From positions 62,001 to 126,000 of the forward strand of contig NZ_AUFF01000006.1 in NCBI RefSeq assembly GCF_000426365.1: DNA of 64,000 bases. The letters run 5' to 3'. This DNA comes from Arenimonas composti TR7-09 = DSM 18010. GTDB taxonomy: Bacteria > Pseudomonadota > Gammaproteobacteria > Xanthomonadales > Xanthomonadaceae. The notes below the pieces were generated by a model. It was not told the DNA's origin. It searched no databases and was given only the letters and a program-made list of their open reading frames with translations. A program made the translations under genes and the position numbers. Numbering within the stretch: position 1 is the stretch's first letter; each line of letters starts with the position of its first letter. This document shows positions 1,911 through 60,225 of the stretch, piece by piece.

Positions 1911-2573
1911 ATGAGCACGATCCCGTCTCCCCTGCGCCAGCTGCTCGCCCTGGCCCCGGTCATCCCCGTCTACACGCCGCAGTCGGTCGGCGAGGCGGTG
2001 CAGGTGGCGGCGGCGCTGCACCGCGGTGGCCTGCCGGTGATCGAGGTGACGCTGCGCACGCCGGTCGCGCTGGCGGCGCTGGAGGCGATGGTGAAGGCGC
2101 TACCGGACGCGGTGATCGGTGCCGGCACCGTGCTCGACGGCCTGCACTTCGATGCCGCCGCCCGCGCCGGTGCCCGCTTCGTGGTGTCGCCGGGGCTGAC
2201 GCCGCGCCTGCTGGCCGCCGCGTCCGCGCATGCGCTGCCGTTCCTGCCCGGGGTGCAGAGTGCGTCCGAGCTGATGGCCGGTCTCGAGGCCGGCCTCGAC
2301 ACCTTCAAGTTCTTCCCCGCCGCACCCGCCGGCGGCACCGCGATGCTGCGCGCCTTCGCCGGGCCGTTCCCGCAGGCCCGCTTCTGCCCTACCGGCGGCA
2401 TCACCGTGGAAACCGCCCCCGGCTACCTGCGGCTGGGCAACGTGCTGTGCATCGGCGGTTCCTGGCTCACGCCGCGGGCGATGCTGGCGGCGGGCGACTG
2501 GGTGGGGGTGGAGGGGCTGGCGCGGCAGGCGGCTGCGGTGGGAAACGAGAAACGGGGAACGGGAAACGAGTGA
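1911..2573 (+). CDS. eda: 2-keto-3-deoxy-6-phosphogluconate aldolase
   Basis: Entner-Doudoroff aldolase splitting KDPG into pyruvate and glyceraldehyde-3-phosphate in the cytoplasm. It has 220 residues, close to the usual 205-215. Visible family signatures are VIEVTLRT with the catalytic Glu, FKFFPA with the Schiff-base Lys, and CPTGGIT in the phosphate-binding loop. The start follows a CCGGAGATCCG ribosome site. The last ten residues (GNEKRGTGNE) are encoded by the left arm of an intergenic inverted repeat rather than by aldolase sequence, and the TGA lies at the arm's end, so the repeat has extended the protein. It converges with the 2OG oxygenase gene. No edd, zwf or other pathway gene is adjacent. 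Confidence 0.93.
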   Translation: MSTIPSPLRQLLALAPVIPVYTPQSVGEAVQVAAALHRGGLPVIEVTLRTPVALAALEAMVKALPDAVIGAGTVLDGLHFDAAARAGARFVVSPGLTPRLLAAASAHALPFLPGVQSASELMAGLEAGLDTFKFFPAAPAGGTAMLRAFAGPFPQARFCPTGGITVETAPGYLRLGNVLCIGGSWLTPRAMLAAGDWVGVEGLARQAAAVGNEKRGTGNE

Positions 2574-2660
2574 AAGTGCGGGATCGCGGCTAAAGCACGC
2601 CGGATCGCGGCTGAAGCCGCTCCTACACTCGTTCCTCGTTCCTGGTTTCTCCTCGTTTCT
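2541..2660. repeat. Imperfect long inverted repeat (GAAACGGG dialect) around REP copies
   Basis: The left arm (2541-2571) is made of words such as GGAAACGAGAAACGGG. The right arm (2627-2660) is the roughly complementary ACTCGTTCCTCG...CTCGTTTCT. Between them lie a degenerate REP (2583-2596) and a good REP (2604-2626, ATCGCGGCTGAAGCCGC followed by TCCTAC). The stop codons of the two convergent genes fall at the two arms (eda TGA 2571-2573; oxygenase TAG at 2659-2661). It probably acts as a bidirectional terminator. Confidence 0.75.
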
Positions 2661-3363
2661 AGCTCTGGAAGATCTGCTCCGCCCGCTGGAACAGGATCCA
2701 GCTCGTCGCGATGTACTTGTCGCCGCCCTCGGGCCGGTTGCCGCGGTGGGTGTGGGTGAAGGCGGCCGGAGCGATCAGCAGGCTGCCGGTTTTCGGCACG
2801 ATCCGGCGCTGCTGGTAGAGGAATTCGGTCTCGCCGGCGGCGAAGCCGTCGTTGAGGTAGAGCGTCCACAGCACGTGCCGGTGCAGGGTCTCGGCATCGG
2901 GCGAGCGCGGATACAGCTCGCAATGCCAGTACGGATAGCCGCCCTGGCCGGCGGTGTAGCGCTGCAGGTTGATCGCGCCGGGGCGCAGCACCGCGCGTAC
3001 CAGCTCACCGAGCGCGCGGTCGTCGAGGGTGTCGAAATCCCCGGCGGTGATCCGCCGCAGCGCGCCGTCGGCGCCCGGCGTCTGCAGCATCACCGGCGCG
3101 ATCAGCGCGTAGCGGTAGGTGCGCAGGTAGCGCAGCAGGCAGGCGTAGACGGCGGTGTTCAGCGCGACCTCGGCCTCGCGCCACTCCGGCTTGCCGGTGA
3201 TCTGGATGTCGCGGCTGTCCTTGAGTTCCGGCAGCACGCCGCCGCCGACCCGGCCGGGGACCGCGGCGCCGCTGGCCTCGAAGGCCTGCACCAGCGCCCG
3301 GCAGACGTCCGGCGACAGCGTGTTCTCGTAGACCTCGATGAAGTCGGCCGGCGTCGCGCTCAC
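2659..3363 (-). CDS. 2-oxoglutarate/Fe(II)-dependent oxygenase (prolyl-4-hydroxylase-like)
   Basis: 234 residues. The C-terminal half has the double-stranded beta-helix iron motif: WHCE (an H-x-E version of the usual H-x-D) near residue 155, a distal His in THTHRGNRP, and an Arg in the same stretch suited to bind 2-oxoglutarate. It therefore resembles the P4Hc family of 2OG oxygenases that hydroxylate protein or small-molecule substrates. The substrate cannot be inferred. The GTG start overlaps the stop codon of the upstream membrane-protein gene by four bases, which indicates translational coupling. It is the last gene of the fbp operon and converges with eda. Confidence 0.82.
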   Translation of the reverse strand: MSATPADFIEVYENTLSPDVCRALVQAFEASGAAVPGRVGGGVLPELKDSRDIQITGKPEWREAEVALNTAVYACLLRYLRTYRYALIAPVMLQTPGADGALRRITAGDFDTLDDRALGELVRAVLRPGAINLQRYTAGQGGYPYWHCELYPRSPDAETLHRHVLWTLYLNDGFAAGETEFLYQQRRIVPKTGSLLIAPAAFTHTHRGNRPEGGDKYIATSWILFQRAEQIFQS

Positions 3364-10310: not shown

Positions 10311-10415
10311 GAGCGCCTTCAGGCGCGATGCTTTCCGCTTCCGTAGGAGCGCCTTCAGGCGCGATGCTTTTGGTTTCGCGGAAGCCGAAAGCATCGCGCC
10401 TGAAGGCGCTCCTAC
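10307..10415. repeat. Cluster of three REP elements, two direct and one inverted
   Basis: The 23-base unit begins GTAGGAGCGCC, contains TTCAGG and ends CGCGAT. Copies are at 10307-10329 (+), 10343-10365 (+) and 10393-10415 (-). Each unit has an internal GCGCC/GGCGC stem, and the opposed copies can form a longer hairpin. The cluster fills the space between two convergent genes and includes the stop codon of the upstream one. Confidence 0.92.
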
Positions 10416-15168: not shown

Positions 15169-16410
15169 GTGACCAGCGCCCCCACCCCCGCTCCCCGCCG
15201 CGCCGCGATGATCTTCATCTTCATCACGGTCCTCATCGACATCCTCGCGTTCGGGCTGATCATTCCGGTGCTGCCGCACCTCGTGGAAGGCTTCGTCGGC
15301 GGTGACACCGCGACCGCCGCCTGGTGGGTCGGGGTGTTCGGCACGACCTTCGCGGCGATCCAGTTCGTCTGCACGCCGATCCAGGGCGCGCTGTCCGACC
15401 GCTTCGGCCGGCGCCCGGTGATCCTGCTGTCCTGCCTCGGCCTGGGCCTGGATTTCGTGCTGATGGCGCTGGCGCCGAACCTGGCCTGGCTGTTCGTCGG
15501 CCGCGTGCTGTCGGCGATGACCGCGGCCAGCTTCTCGATCGCCAATGCCTACATCGCCGACACCACCGCGCCGGAGCAGCGCGCGAAGTCCTACGGCATG
15601 CTCGGCGCCGCGTTCGGCCTCGGCTTCATCATCGGGCCGGTCGTCGGTGGCGTGCTCGGCGACATCGACGTGCGCGCGCCGTTCTGGGCCGCGGCGGCGC
15701 TGGCGCTGGCGAACTTCCTCTACGGTCTGTTCGTGCTGCCGGAATCGCTGCCCGTGGAGAAGCGCACGCCGCGCTTCGACTGGGCGCATGCGAATCCGGT
15801 CGGCGCGCTGGTGCTGCTGCGCCGCTATCCGCAGGTATTCGGGCTGGCCGCGGTGATCTTCCTCGACAGCCTCGCGCATTACGTGTTCCCGAGCGTCTTC
15901 GTGCTGTTCGCCGACGTGCGCTTCGACTGGGGCATCAAGCAGGTCGGCTACGTGCTCGCCGGCGTCGGCCTGTGCACGGCGATCGTGCAGGCGGGCCTGA
16001 TCGGCCGGATCGTCAAGGCGGTCGGCGAGCGTCGCGCGCTGCTGATCGGCCAGAGCGCCGGCCTCGCCGGTTTCCTGCTGTACGCCTTCGCCGGCGAGGG
16101 CTGGCTGTTCCTGCTCGGCATTCCGGTGATGGCCTTCTGGGGCCTCGCGAATCCGTCGGTGCAGGCGCTGGCCACGCGCGCGGTCGGCGCCGACGAGCAG
16201 GGTCGACTGCAGGGCGCCTTCATGAGCCTGGCCAGCCTCTGCGGCGTGTTCGCGCCGCTGATGTACGCGTCGGTGTTCGCGCACGCGATCGTGCCGAACG
16301 CGCCGCTGTACTACCCGGGTGCGCCGTTCCTGCTCGCCGCGGTGATCGTCGCGCTGGCGTTCTGGGTCTCGCACCGCGCGACACGGCCGGCGGTGGTGCC
16401 GGCGGTCTAG
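15169..16410 (+). CDS. MFS drug/H+ antiporter, TetA-like
   Basis: 413 residues with twelve membrane helices. The loop 2-3 motif [14 protein letters not shown] is the MFS motif A, and helix 5 has the antiporter motif C region [14 protein letters not shown]. The start [22 protein letters not shown] is typical of the tetracycline-type 12-helix drug exporters. The real substrate is unknown. The GTG start is preceded by a GAAGAAGAAGAG purine run; an ATG 13 codons on (15208) is an alternative start. No TetR-type regulator is adjacent. Confidence 0.9.
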
Positions 16411-16445
16411 ACTGTCGCAACCCACGAAACGTCACGGAGACCGCG

Positions 16446-17030
16446 ATGAACGAGCCCGTCACCCGCGAACAGGCCGAGGACGCCGTGCGCGTGCTGCTGC
16501 GCTGGGCCGGCGAGGATCCCGCGCGCGAGGGTCTGGTCGACACCCCGAAGCGTGTCGCCAAGGCCTATCGCGACTGGTTCAGCGGCTACGGCATCGACCC
16601 GACCGAATACCTCGCACGCACCTTCGAGGAAGTCGCCGGCTACGACGAGATGATCGTGCTGCGCGACATCGAGTACGAATCGCATTGCGAGCACCACATG
16701 GCGCCGATCATCGGCAAGGTGCACATCGGCTACCTGCCCGACGGCAAGGTCGTCGGCATCAGCAAGCTCGCGCGCGTCGTCGAGGCCTACGCGCGTCGCT
16801 TCCAGGTGCAGGAGAAGATGACCGCGCAGATCGCCCGCTGCATCCAGGACGTGCTGCAGCCGCGCGGCGTCGGCGTGGTCGTCGAAGGCGCGCACGAATG
16901 CATGACCACCCGCGGCATCCACAAGCGCGGCGTCAGCATGATCACGTCGAAGATGCTCGGCACCTTCCGCGACGACGCCCGCACGCGGTCCGAGTTCCTG
17001 CAGTTCATCGATGTGGGGCCGGGGCGGTGA
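16446..17030 (+). CDS. folE: GTP cyclohydrolase I
   Basis: Makes 7,8-dihydroneopterin triphosphate, first step of folate/tetrahydropterin synthesis. 194 residues, slightly shorter than E. coli FolE (222). Zinc ligands are visible in [10 protein letters not shown] and in [30 protein letters not shown] is the family's substrate-loop region. The start follows CACGGAGACCGCG. It is 35 bases after the MFS gene and could be co-transcribed or use its own TAGACT box near 16408. An inverted repeat enclosing a REP follows. Confidence 0.97.
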
Positions 17031-17033
17031 AGC

Positions 17034-17157
17034 GAGTAACGAGTGGAGAGTAACGAGTAACGCGTAAGAGCGGCTTCAGCCGCGATCTGGCCGTTCACCT
17101 TCTCCTCGCACGAAGCGCGGGCTCTACTCGTTACTCGTTACTCTCCACTCGTTACTC
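17034..17157. repeat. Perfect 29-bp inverted repeat (GTAACGAGT dialect) enclosing a REP
   Basis: Left arm 17034-17062 (GAGTAACGAGTGGAGAG, then TAACGAGTAACG) is exactly complementary to 17129-17157. Between them is a REP of the second type (AGAGCGGCTTCAGCCGCGAT at 17067-17086). It starts three bases after the folE stop and ends 54 bases before the OmpA-lipoprotein gene. The arms consist of repeated GTAACGAGT words. Confidence 0.95.
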
Positions 17158-17211
17158 CACCTTGACGCGTCCCGTGGATGCTCGTGCACATCCAGCCCCC
17201 GGAGCCCCGCC

Positions 17212-17940
17212 ATGTCCTTCCCCCGTTCCCTGCTCGCCGCCGCCCTCGCCTCGAGCTTCCTCGCCGGCTGCGCCAGCGCCCCCTACCAGGCCAGTGGCCC
17301 CTACGACTCCGGTGACCGCTACGGCGATCGCCACGACGACCGTTACCAGGAGCCCGAGGACGTCAACCGCACCCGCCGCGGCGCGATCACCGGCGCCGTC
17401 GCCGGCGCGGTGATCGGCCTGCTCAGCGGCAGCGATGCCACCGAGCGCCGGCAGCGCGCGCTGATCGGTGCCGGCGTGGGCGGCCTCGCCGGTGGCGCCA
17501 TCGGCCGTTACCAGGACAACCAGGAGCGCGAGCTGCGCGAGCGCATGCGCGACACCGGCGTCGACGTCGTCCGCCAGGGCGACCACATCACGCTGGACAT
17601 CCCCAGCGGCATCACCTTCGGCTTCGACAGCAGCGAAGTGCTGCCGGCCTTCCGCGGCGTGCTCGACCGCCTCGCGCAGACGCTGGGCCAGTACGACCAG
17701 ACGATCATCGAGGTCGCCGGCCACACCGACAACGTCGGCACCGAGGCCTACAACCAGGCGCTCTCGGTCCGCCGCGCCCAGGCCGTCGGCGACTACCTGG
17801 TGGCGCGCGGCGTCAATCGCGAGCGCCTGATCATCACCGGCGCCGGCGAACTGCGGCCGGTCGCGAGCAACGAGACCGAAGCCGGCCGCGCCGAGAACCG
17901 CCGCGTCGAGATCACCCTGGTGCCGCTGCGCGCCGACTGA
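17212..17940 (+). CDS. OmpA-family outer-membrane lipoprotein (YiaD/Pal-like)
   Basis: 242 residues. The signal peptide ends in lipobox LAGC (Cys20), so the protein is lipid-anchored. A Tyr/Asp-rich linker follows, then a glycine-zipper segment (ITGAVAGAVIGLLSG and ALIGAGVGGLAGGAIG, residues ~58-100), which can insert in or lie on membranes. The C-terminal OmpA domain (~125-238) has VAGHTDNVGTEAYNQALSVRRA and ENRRVEI, the peptidoglycan-binding residues. It probably ties the outer membrane to the cell wall. The CCGGAGCCCCGCC ribosome site is good. Confidence 0.92.
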   Translation: MSFPRSLLAAALASSFLAGCASAPYQASGPYDSGDRYGDRHDDRYQEPEDVNRTRRGAITGAVAGAVIGLLSGSDATERRQRALIGAGVGGLAGGAIGRYQDNQERELRERMRDTGVDVVRQGDHITLDIPSGITFGFDSSEVLPAFRGVLDRLAQTLGQYDQTIIEVAGHTDNVGTEAYNQALSVRRAQAVGDYLVARGVNRERLIITGAGELRPVASNETEAGRAENRRVEITLVPLRAD

Positions 17941-17988
17941 TCGCGTCCAGCCCCGCTCCCCGGCGTGGCCCCGCCGGGGGCGGGCTCC

Positions 17989-17994
17989 TATACT
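17989..17994 (+). promoter_or_regulatory. -10 box (TATACT) for a leaderless start at 18002
   Basis: TATACT ends 7 bases before the GTG start codon of the next gene, a distance that would place the transcription start at the start codon. No Shine-Dalgarno sequence separates them. No clear -35 element is present. Confidence 0.5.
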
Positions 17995-18001
17995 CGCGGG
18001 G

Positions 18002-39932: not shown

Positions 39933-39955
39933 GTAGGAGCGCCTTCAGGCGCGAT
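39933..39955. repeat. REP element between DUF885 and AEC genes
   Basis: A complete GTAGGAGCGCC...CGCGAT unit begins 4 bases after the DUF885 stop and ends 7 bases before the AEC ATG. The REP therefore occupies the place where a ribosome site would be expected. Confidence 0.93.
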
Positions 39956-39962
39956 CCTCCCC

Positions 39963-40874
39963 ATGGCCTCCTACGCCCTCATCCTCGCCATGCTCGCCCT
40001 CGGCCTGCTCTTCCGCAGGCTGCGGCTGTTCCCGGAATCCGCGCCGGAAACCCTGAACCTGGTCGTGCTCTACGTCTGCCTGCCGGCCTCGGTGCTGCTC
40101 TACGCGCCGCGGCTGCAGTTCGGCATGCATGTGCTGGCGGTCGCGGCGGTGCCCTGGCTGCTGCTGCTCGCGACGATCGCTGCAGTCAGCGCGGTTTCGA
40201 AGTGGCTGCGCCTGCGCCGAGACGAACACGCGGTGCTGCTGCTCTGCGTCGCGCTCGGCAACACCAGCTTCCTCGGCTATCCGCTGTGCCGCGCCCTGCT
40301 CGGCGAGGCGGCGCTGCCCTACGCGGTGATCTACGACCAGTTCGGCGCCTTCCTGATCCTCTCGACCTTCGGTCTCTACGTGCTCGCGCGCTACGGCGGC
40401 GACACCCCGCCGACCGCGCGCGCGATGGCGAAGCGCGTCGTCACCTTCCCGCCCTTCCTCGCGCTGCTGTTCGGGCTGACGCTGATGCCGGCGACCCCGC
40501 CGGCGTGGATCGCCGACGGCCTGCAGCGCCTCGCCGACGCCCTGTTGCCGCTGGTCGTGCTGGCGATCGGCCTGAGCCTGCAGCTGAAGCTGCCGCGGGA
40601 CGAACTGAAACCGCTCGCCGCCGGCCTCGGACTGAAGCTGATCGTGATGCCGGCGCTGGCGCTGGCCGTCGTGCCGCTGCTCGGCCTCGCCGGCACCGCC
40701 GCCGACGCCACTGTGCTCGAATCGGCGATGCCGCCGATGGTCACCGCCGCGGCGCTGGCGATCTCGCACCGCCTCGCCCCCGGCCTCGCCGCCGCGATGG
40801 TCGGCTACGGCATCCTGCTCTCGCTGGCGACGCTGCCCGCCTGGACCTGGCTCCTCCAGCACCTCCCCCTGTAG
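39963..40874 (+). CDS. AEC-family (auxin efflux carrier type) permease
   Basis: 303 residues, about ten hydrophobic helices. NTSFLGYPLCRALLG and AVIYDQFGAFLILSTFGLYV correspond to the conserved Asn/Gly-rich helix break of the AEC/BASS-like fold. Bacterial members move organic acids such as malate or amino acids; the substrate here is not known. The start lies 7 bases after a REP, with only CCTCCCC between, so there is no Shine-Dalgarno site. The UAG stop is part of the next REP (GTAGGAGCG...). Convergent with the Ycf46-like ATPase. Confidence 0.88.
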   Translation: MASYALILAMLALGLLFRRLRLFPESAPETLNLVVLYVCLPASVLLYAPRLQFGMHVLAVAAVPWLLLLATIAAVSAVSKWLRLRRDEHAVLLLCVALGNTSFLGYPLCRALLGEAALPYAVIYDQFGAFLILSTFGLYVLARYGGDTPPTARAMAKRVVTFPPFLALLFGLTLMPATPPAWIADGLQRLADALLPLVVLAIGLSLQLKLPRDELKPLAAGLGLKLIVMPALALAVVPLLGLAGTAADATVLESAMPPMVTAAALAISHRLAPGLAAAMVGYGILLSLATLPAWTWLLQHLPL

Positions 40875-40969
40875 GAGCGCCTTCAGGCGCGATGCCCCTT
40901 CTGTAGGAGCGCCTTCAGGCGCGATGCTTTTCTTTACAGCAACAGCATCGCGCCTGAAGGCGCTCCTAC
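40871..40969. repeat. Three REP elements, two direct and one inverted
   Basis: Copies at 40871-40893 (+), 40903-40925 (+) and 40947-40969 (-), laid out almost as at 10307-10415. The last direct copy and the inverted copy form a stem of about 25 bases. The cluster sits between two convergent genes, and the TAG of the first copy ends the AEC reading frame. Confidence 0.93.
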
Positions 40970-42529: not shown

Positions 42530-42552
42530 ATCGCGCCTGAAGGCGCTCCTAC
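42530..42552. repeat. REP element at the gltD end
   Basis: Inverted complete REP (ATCGCGCCTGAAGGCGCTCC then TAC). Read on the minus strand, its GTAG supplies the TAG stop codon of gltD (42549-42551). Confidence 0.93.
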
Positions 42553-57517: not shown

Positions 57518-57520
57518 CCA

Positions 57521-57704
57521 GTAACGAGTGGAGAGTAACGAGTGAATGCCCGCGCTGCGCGCGAAGGGCGTGGCGCTCGACACTACTCCCAACTCGCGCG
57601 GCAGCGCGGCAGTCCGGTCTGAAACGAGTGGAGTTCCGAGTGCCGCGTTCCGCTCTTCGCGGAACGCGAGCCGTCACTCGTTACTCGTTACTCTCCCCTC
57701 GTTC
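57521..57704. repeat. Inverted repeat of the GTAACGAGT dialect with a long insert
   Basis: Left arm GTAACGAGTGGAGAGTAACG (57521-57540) matches the arm at 17034. The right arm from ~57675 (CACTCGTTACTCGTTACTC, then TCCCCTCGTTCC) complements it with two mismatches over 20 bases. The ~130-base insert contains two more arm-like words (GAAACGAGTGGAG and CGCGTTCCG/CGGAACGCG). The block lies between a terminator and the uppP stop. Confidence 0.8.
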
Positions 57705-57710
57705 CTCGCC

Positions 57711-60202: not shown

Positions 60203-60225
60203 GTAGGAGCGCCTTCAGGCGCGAT
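60203..60225. repeat. REP element after glnA, with partial duplicate
   Basis: A complete unit 24 bases after the glnA stop, with a partial second copy (CTCAGGCGCGATCCCC, 60226-60240) directly appended. Confidence 0.92.

Follow-up and report, generated by a model that had tools for sequence, protein, structure and literature searches.

Heptad-ended intervening-sequence protein elements behind stop codons look like overlooked mobile DNA in several bacterial phyla

The hairpin immediately downstream of folE in Arenimonas composti TR7-09 is probably (at a rough probability of 0.7) a short, noncoding member of a mobile family that lodges behind stop codons and whose full-length form encodes a 23S rRNA-intervening sequence protein (IVP, also annotated as S23 or four helix bundle protein). 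This reading draws on the anatomy of the hairpin, an IVP-coding copy with the same arms, the placement of copies at stop codons, empty sites in relatives, and a noncoding insert at a plasmid site where the coding form is found in other strains. The window is the whole 64,000-nucleotide stretch of DNA that was analyzed, and its first letter is position 1.

The two arms of the hairpin (Table 1) are complementary without mismatch over 29 nucleotides (positions 17034 to 17062 versus 17129 to 17157), as the initial annotation had stated, and 97% complementary when extended to 33 nucleotides. That annotation also described the arms as built of repeated words, which is correct, but the word it gave, GTAACGAGT, fits less well than a heptad, GAGTNNN: the arms are tandem series of GAGTAAC GAGTGGA GAGTAAC GAGTAAC GAGT, with GCGTA as the fifth unit of the left arm. 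The loop holds the REP AGCGGCTTCAGCCGCGAT, as noted previously, and no IVP frame. The predicted RNA fold has an energy of -75.3 kcal/mol (z, -9.25; 0 of 200 shuffles as stable). The view that this is no simple terminator agrees with the lack of terminator-like sites in 16900 to 17300. A search of RNA families gave no rRNA match at 16000 to 18000, and its four matches at the locus (three microRNA models and one CRISPR repeat model) were all below the gathering score.

Table 1. Coordinates of the elements and neighboring genes in the window
Feature	Position	Strand	Comment
Whole element	17031..17160	.	Starts just past folE stop; end is outer end of right arm
Left arm	17034..17066	+	Heptads GAGTAAC GAGTGGA GAGTAAC GAGTAAC GCGTA
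Right arm	17125..17157	-	Heptads in inverted copy
REP, incidental	17069..17086	+	Inside loop of window hairpin
folE stop codon TGA	17028..17030	+	3 nt upstream of arm's first GAG
folE, GTP cyclohydrolase I	16446..17030	+	Upstream host gene; PF01227, E 8.7e-74
OmpA-family lipoprotein gene	17212..17940	+	Downstream host gene; PF00691, E 1.7e-22
Second paired element	57520..57709	.	Arms ~57520-57545 (+) and 57674-57709 (-); locus L294
Third element, more diverged	2541..2662	.	GAAAC and GGAAC heptads, read by eye

The hairpin belongs to a large family within its own genome (3.16 Mb in 29 contigs), where the 136-bp element used as a query gave 111 matches. Two arm patterns yielded 131 and 84 genome matches versus 1 and 0 for reversed controls; the first of these, GAGTAACGAGTAACGAGT with up to two mismatches, shows a dispersed element and bears out the earlier claim that this is no chance repeat. 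After collapsing, at least 80 distinct arm clusters remained, a lower bound from the matches listed, comprising 52 inverted pairs and 28 single arms. Paired copies span 76 to 200 bp (median, 119) and are noncoding; their interiors vary, and small GC hairpins occur in many copies that lack a REP core. Two further copies lie in the window, one directly preceded by a terminator-like hairpin with a T-tract and the other holding a REP at 2604 to 2621 on the minus strand.

The coding form is represented by a long copy (G000, contig C12, 51577 to 52158; locus L037), in which the same arms stand about 515 bp apart around a 116-amino-acid frame identified as an IVP (PF05635; E, 2.8e-33). A Pfam search of this protein detected no nuclease or transposase domain, returning PF05635 and the bAvd model at 2.3e-4, which is below that model's cut-off. 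Three further IVP matches occur in the genome, two with arms of other words (L390 and L429) and one without significant arms (L426). In an alignment of 15 IVPs, the polar residues E29, Q36, R39, N47, E50, and E73 (numbered as in the first sequence) do not vary, which hints that this protein without known activity has a conserved site. The only solved relative found was 2gsc, XCC0516.

The initial annotation had instead taken the hairpin for a composite of a REP core and a variable flanking stem; in such an element, a RAYT-like Y1 transposase would move the core. A REP is indeed present in the window copy and in 13 of the 52 paired copies, another lies within 100 nt outside the arm at 10 of 28 single-arm clusters, and the genome has five Y1_Tnp matches. 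The pattern used detected no REP core in the other 39 paired copies, the palindrome ends are heptads rather than REPs, and among the 100 REPs listed of the 269 in the genome, with distances taken by reading coordinates, 91 lie more than 100 nt from any arm and 9 lie closer. REP density, at roughly 2 per kb of element, is by rough arithmetic similar to that of the window's intergenic DNA, which contains 12 REPs (up to two mismatches) in 5.8 kb. Because the arms are conserved and the core is variable, the REP in the loop looks incidental and its enclosure close to accidental; the composite reading was rejected on these counts and retains a negligible probability. The five Y1_Tnp (PF01797) matches, on contigs C2 and C3 (L355 to L359), may be RAYTs that serve the 269 REPs. 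REPs of a second type, AGCGCCTTCAGGCGCGAT, are found singly or in clusters of three at window positions 10312 to 10410, 39938 to 40964, 42530 to 42547, and 60208 to 60225.

Gene ends were assigned with a codon-score gene caller of our own, trained on the window. At 90 of 132 outer arm ends, a gene 3' end lies within 60 nt and the gene runs into the arm, and at 25 a stop codon stands 3 or 4 nt ahead of the first GAG. Uniform intergenic placement, a null model that leaves the purging of gene insertions out of account, would produce this spacing in 1.6% of cases (92 of 5,798 window positions; binomial P, 1e-19). TGA, TAA, and TAG are all seen at the -3 spacing, which ties the element to the end of translation rather than to one DNA word. 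A further 36 ends have their stop codon completed within the arm, 32 of them at +6, +13, +20, +27, or +34, offsets that step from one heptad to the next. Since the A. composti arms contain stop codons in all three inward frames, a copy can also take the place of the native stop, which extends the protein by a short tail. Element-encoded tails were read at L013, L031, L004, and L038 (ASNEWRVTSNE, ASNERRVTSGE, RVKSGE, and RVTRGE), and C termini of this kind in annotated proteins of this genome should be recognized as coming from the element.

The same placement is found in other genera, for which the caller was retrained on the named loci; for control genes and armed IVP loci from other genomes, the window-trained version was used unchanged. 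Half of the arm ends there (65 of 130) have the 3' end of a gene pointing at them from 60 nt or less, the commonest offset being -4 (10 cases). In-arm stops are not a conserved trait, because GAGGAAC, the usual word in the named carriers below, contains no stop codon.

Placement between genes could also mean that the hairpins were selected where they stand, as bidirectional terminators or to form mRNA 3' ends. The stem is very stable, and 39 of the 80 clusters in A. composti separate convergent genes versus 4 that separate divergent ones (36 are between tandem genes and 1 is inside a frame). Against selection in place, the window copy has no terminator-like site, 52 of 74 clusters in other genera are between tandem genes, and none of 26 congeners carries the arm pattern. 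Furthermore, arms do not covary within the GAGTAAC subfamily, in which arms within one copy resemble each other no more closely than arms taken from different copies do (1,427 of 2,000 permutations). An origin as a terminator is thus very improbable, although an inserted copy may later have been used as a terminator or 3'-end hairpin.

Insertion is favored by comparison of occupied and empty sites. Of the 24 congeners in which pntB was matched, 13 lack an element at the convergent pair of pntB and its neighbor, with a spacer of 7 to 41 nt between the two stops (the other 11 gave no neighbor match at the threshold, and the neighbor end is poorly placed at L349); the spacer in A. composti is 150 nt, with the element 3 nt from either native stop. 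RsmB ends in ...ALLRKAG*, ALLLKAA*, and similar sequences in the congener rows readable in frame, about half of the total, and in ...ALLVKRVTRGE* in A. composti, in which the last residues are encoded by the element. Gene order at folE is not conserved in the congeners examined, and that site gave no occupied/empty comparison.

Similar comparisons are available for coding forms at two sites on plasmids of cyanobacteria (Nostocales). Plasmids of Nostoc sp. C052 and N. edaphicum have a TraM-recognition gene whose stop codon is followed by an IVP element; in Nostoc sp. C057, the element is absent and the spacer is 52 nt. Behind the same stop, Nostoc sp. ATCC 53789 has a 260-nt spacer that lacks the IVP gene and bears related inverted heptads at both ends, an insert that may have arisen either by gene loss or by separate insertion. 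The ancestral spacer in C052 and N. edaphicum seems to have been replaced and not merely interrupted. Near-identical IVPs on two Nostoc plasmids were considered as a sign of recent movement and rejected, since they share the same gene context. In Calothrix brevissima, an IVP element fills a gap that reads TAG GAG ATG or TAG CAT ATG in Tolypothrix PCC 7601 and Aulosira laxa; the element ends right at the conserved ATG of the next gene, and the integrase ends in GEEEE* in this organism, versus GEEEVE* otherwise.

Heptads could in principle arise without movement, as simple-sequence repeats generated by slippage and inversion in place and kept for DNA or RNA structure, in line with the G-quadruplex proposal in the available part of Rehm et al. 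2015 (PMC4692102). Heptad number does differ between arms and between copies, and four units near stops recall the GGGAATC repeats of that study. Such an origin is quite improbable given that GAGTAAC has no G-tract, that the same order of heptad units recurs at dozens of unrelated sites in the genome, and that relatives have empty sites.

Related arms are found in 42 of 395 Xanthomonadaceae genomes, representing 15 of 54 genera (reversed control, 0 among the matches listed). In a set of named genomes, the exact A. composti arm gave no match, and a degenerate arm pattern matched 89 stretches, 80 of them listed; named carriers are, among others, Pseudoxanthomonas composti, P. wuyuanensis, P. yeongjuensis, Stenotrophomonas daejeonensis, Lysobacter antibioticus, and Luteimonas suaedae. 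The arm pattern was not found in viral contigs. PF05635 is present in 163 of the 395 genomes and is associated with the arms: 30 of 42 arm carriers, a count made by comparing two match lists by eye, have an IVP, versus 133 of 353 other genomes (P, 4e-5), and the proportion is 16 of 17 among carriers with at least five arm matches. The 12 carriers that show no IVP count against the IVP-linked reading. GAG-type heptad seeds flank the IVP gene on both sides in six genomes (G029, G072, G087, G112, G164, and G366).

The association extends to IVP genes generally. Flanking inverted arms were scored against 100 dinucleotide shuffles, and a locus passed if it beat all 100. This was the case for 61 of 69 family loci, 13 of 20 plasmid loci, and 21 of 24 distinct loci in IMG/VR contigs, the remaining 8, 7, and 3 having no significant arms; 4 of 123 control genes, partly from loci fetched for their arms, also passed. 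Strong repeats on both sides characterize 31 of 69 family and 9 of 20 plasmid loci; no control gene passed with such repeats. The family sample includes the 30 best-scoring PF05635 matches (L360 to L389) and a set mostly from arm carriers (L390 to L409). The plasmid sample covers 20 of 31 matching records, with guessed frame ends for L437 and L449, and consists of 18 cyanobacterial loci, one gemmatimonad locus, and one alphaproteobacterial locus, the latter two both passing. IVP loci are not independent, and the 89 family and plasmid loci reduce to 33 clusters by shared flanking genes, three of which hold 55 loci; 22 of the 33 have arms, and 15 have a lag of 7 on both sides.

A period of 7 dominates the IVP arms, and the word varies between lineages (GGGACTC, GGGACCG, GGGAATC, GAGGAGT, TGAAATC, AAACCTG, and GAAATGG). 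Among strong repeats, a lag of 7 scores best in all 37 upstream cases and in 36 of 37 downstream cases in the family, as it does in 18 of 19 upstream cases in IMG/VR contigs; a lag of 7 is also the commonest among strong upstream repeats of control genes (6 cases). Arms with a period of 8 were observed in Gemmatirosa (L437), Picosynechococcus (L439), Leptolyngbya (L447), and a viral contig (L537). Dispersal of the resident IVP word differs between genomes: in 400 kb, GGGACTC occurs at 11 sites in G255 versus 0 in three other genomes, GGGAATC is weakly dispersed in G320 (4 sites versus 3, 0, and 1 in other genomes), and two of three words in G084 are at 0 to 1 sites, with no clear excess. In G273, GAGGAGT is not above its reversed control, and the related word GAGGAAC is present at 5 sites. 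Among the 61 IVP elements with arms, 24 have an upstream gene end near the arm, which falls at -4 to +13 nt in 16; many of these share one site. No rRNA or other RNA-family match at the gathering score was detected in the 15 IVP loci scanned, and the phage collection gave no IVP match.

STRR repeats are known from cyanobacteria. On cyanobacterial plasmids, IVP genes are also located between CRISPR-associated genes (cas6 and cas4 at L431 and L444; cas10 and cmr3 at L439). A Fischerella plasmid (L565) has a partial IVP match covering 57% of the query, 88% identical to a Nostoc IVP, directly ahead of another frame.

The short copies resemble MITEs in being noncoding, dispersed in many copies, bounded by terminal inverted repeats, related to a coding element, and absent from congeners. 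A usual MITE, with the arms serving an unlinked transposase and the IVP a passenger gene, is nevertheless unlikely. The coding form encodes PF05635 and no known transposase, and the 52 paired copies gave no target-site duplication (best z, 2.48 in 729 tests), which leaves ordinary cut-and-paste transposition without support. In addition, heptad arms enclose the IVP gene in the family, in other phyla, and in contigs of the viral collection despite changes of word, which a passenger would not explain.

Among known systems, the closest likeness is to the 23S rRNA intervening sequence (IVS) of Coxiella burnetii, described in the available part of PMC4990558 as a 28-bp stem with tandem GACAGAT heptads before an S23p frame and as excised by RNase III. 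According to the same source, an older idea held that the IVS frame served mobility, S23p of Xanthomonas is a pentamer of four-helix bundles, and the protein is probably not made in Coxiella. The A. composti family shares the inverted-repeat stem, the heptads, and, in the long copy, a PF05635-type protein. It differs in that the window copy and the 15 scanned IVP loci are outside rRNA, behind the stops of protein genes, and in that the S23p/IVP frame is missing from the window copy.

Two reports describe other heptads. In the accessible part of Rehm et al. (PMC4692102), GGGAATC heptads, described as of unknown function, with four units preferred, overlap stop codons, and two Xanthomonas genomes contain 70 and 75 pairs in inverted orientation; the heptads were read as G-quadruplex repeats with no association with mobile elements. 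The string 23S is absent from the text of that paper. The window family shares the tandem 7-nt units, inverted pairs, and closeness to stop codons, and the word of these repeats recurs in the arms of IVP genes in Xanthomonadaceae; GAGTAAC, unlike GGGNATC, lacks GGG and cannot form G-tracts. For Nostoc PCC 7120, the same source gives few inverted pairs and no repeats on the plasmids, and an IVP-heptad link is not favored there. The TAACTGA heptads of MacGregor 2015 (PMC4679880), for which mobility was left open, are similarly intergenic with stops in all three frames; they differ in being mostly direct repeats just upstream of start codons, and no mention of IVP was found in the part of that paper available. 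REP, REPIN, and BIME elements are likewise intergenic palindromes, and the window copy has a REP, but REPs do not form the arms and are missing from most paired copies. By location, the window element is not an IVS; nor is it a REPIN, and it shows none of the target-site duplication that marks a classical MITE. No link of IVP genes outside rRNA to heptad repeats was found in the literature searched, mostly nonsubscription papers.

For the IVP-encoding family, the following cycle may be envisaged. Both forms are bounded by inverted arms of about four tandem heptads, with the 7-nt period kept and the word differing by lineage, and lodge shortly after a stop codon, in the gap that follows it. In RNA, the arms would form a stem of about 30 bp; by analogy with the Coxiella IVS, the window element may behave like an IVS outside rRNA whose stem is cut by RNase III. 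Mobility of the family is deduced from the site comparisons, and we infer that the IVP is its mobility protein, helping the element to spread, perhaps by binding the arms. Short forms would then depend on IVP from other copies. Weighing against the IVP-linked reading are the missing target-site duplication, an IVP with no known nuclease or transposase domain, the lack of arm covariation in the GAGTAAC subfamily, IVP loci that have no significant arms or share flanking genes, arm carriers without an IVP, resident words with no clear dispersal in G084 and G273, and the Nostoc PCC 7120 data of Rehm et al. That movement proceeds via RNA or single-stranded DNA is a guess.

A broader proposal is offered tentatively, at somewhat short of even odds: IVP genes could define a mobile class spanning several phyla, free of any known transposase, heptad-ended and inserted behind stops, of which 23S IVSs, the Xanthomonas and Nostoc heptads, and the window hairpin would be members or remnants. 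The IVP, with its weak similarity to the bAvd model, would be the mobility protein and would recognize the stem of heptads in the form of RNA or single-stranded DNA. In the portions of the literature examined, IVP genes, 23S rRNA intervening sequences, and bacterial heptameric repeats appear as separate puzzles. If they are one element, the IVP gains a testable role, the origin of a class of intergenic hairpins is explained, and experiments become possible on mobile DNA that owes its tolerance to lodging behind stop codons.
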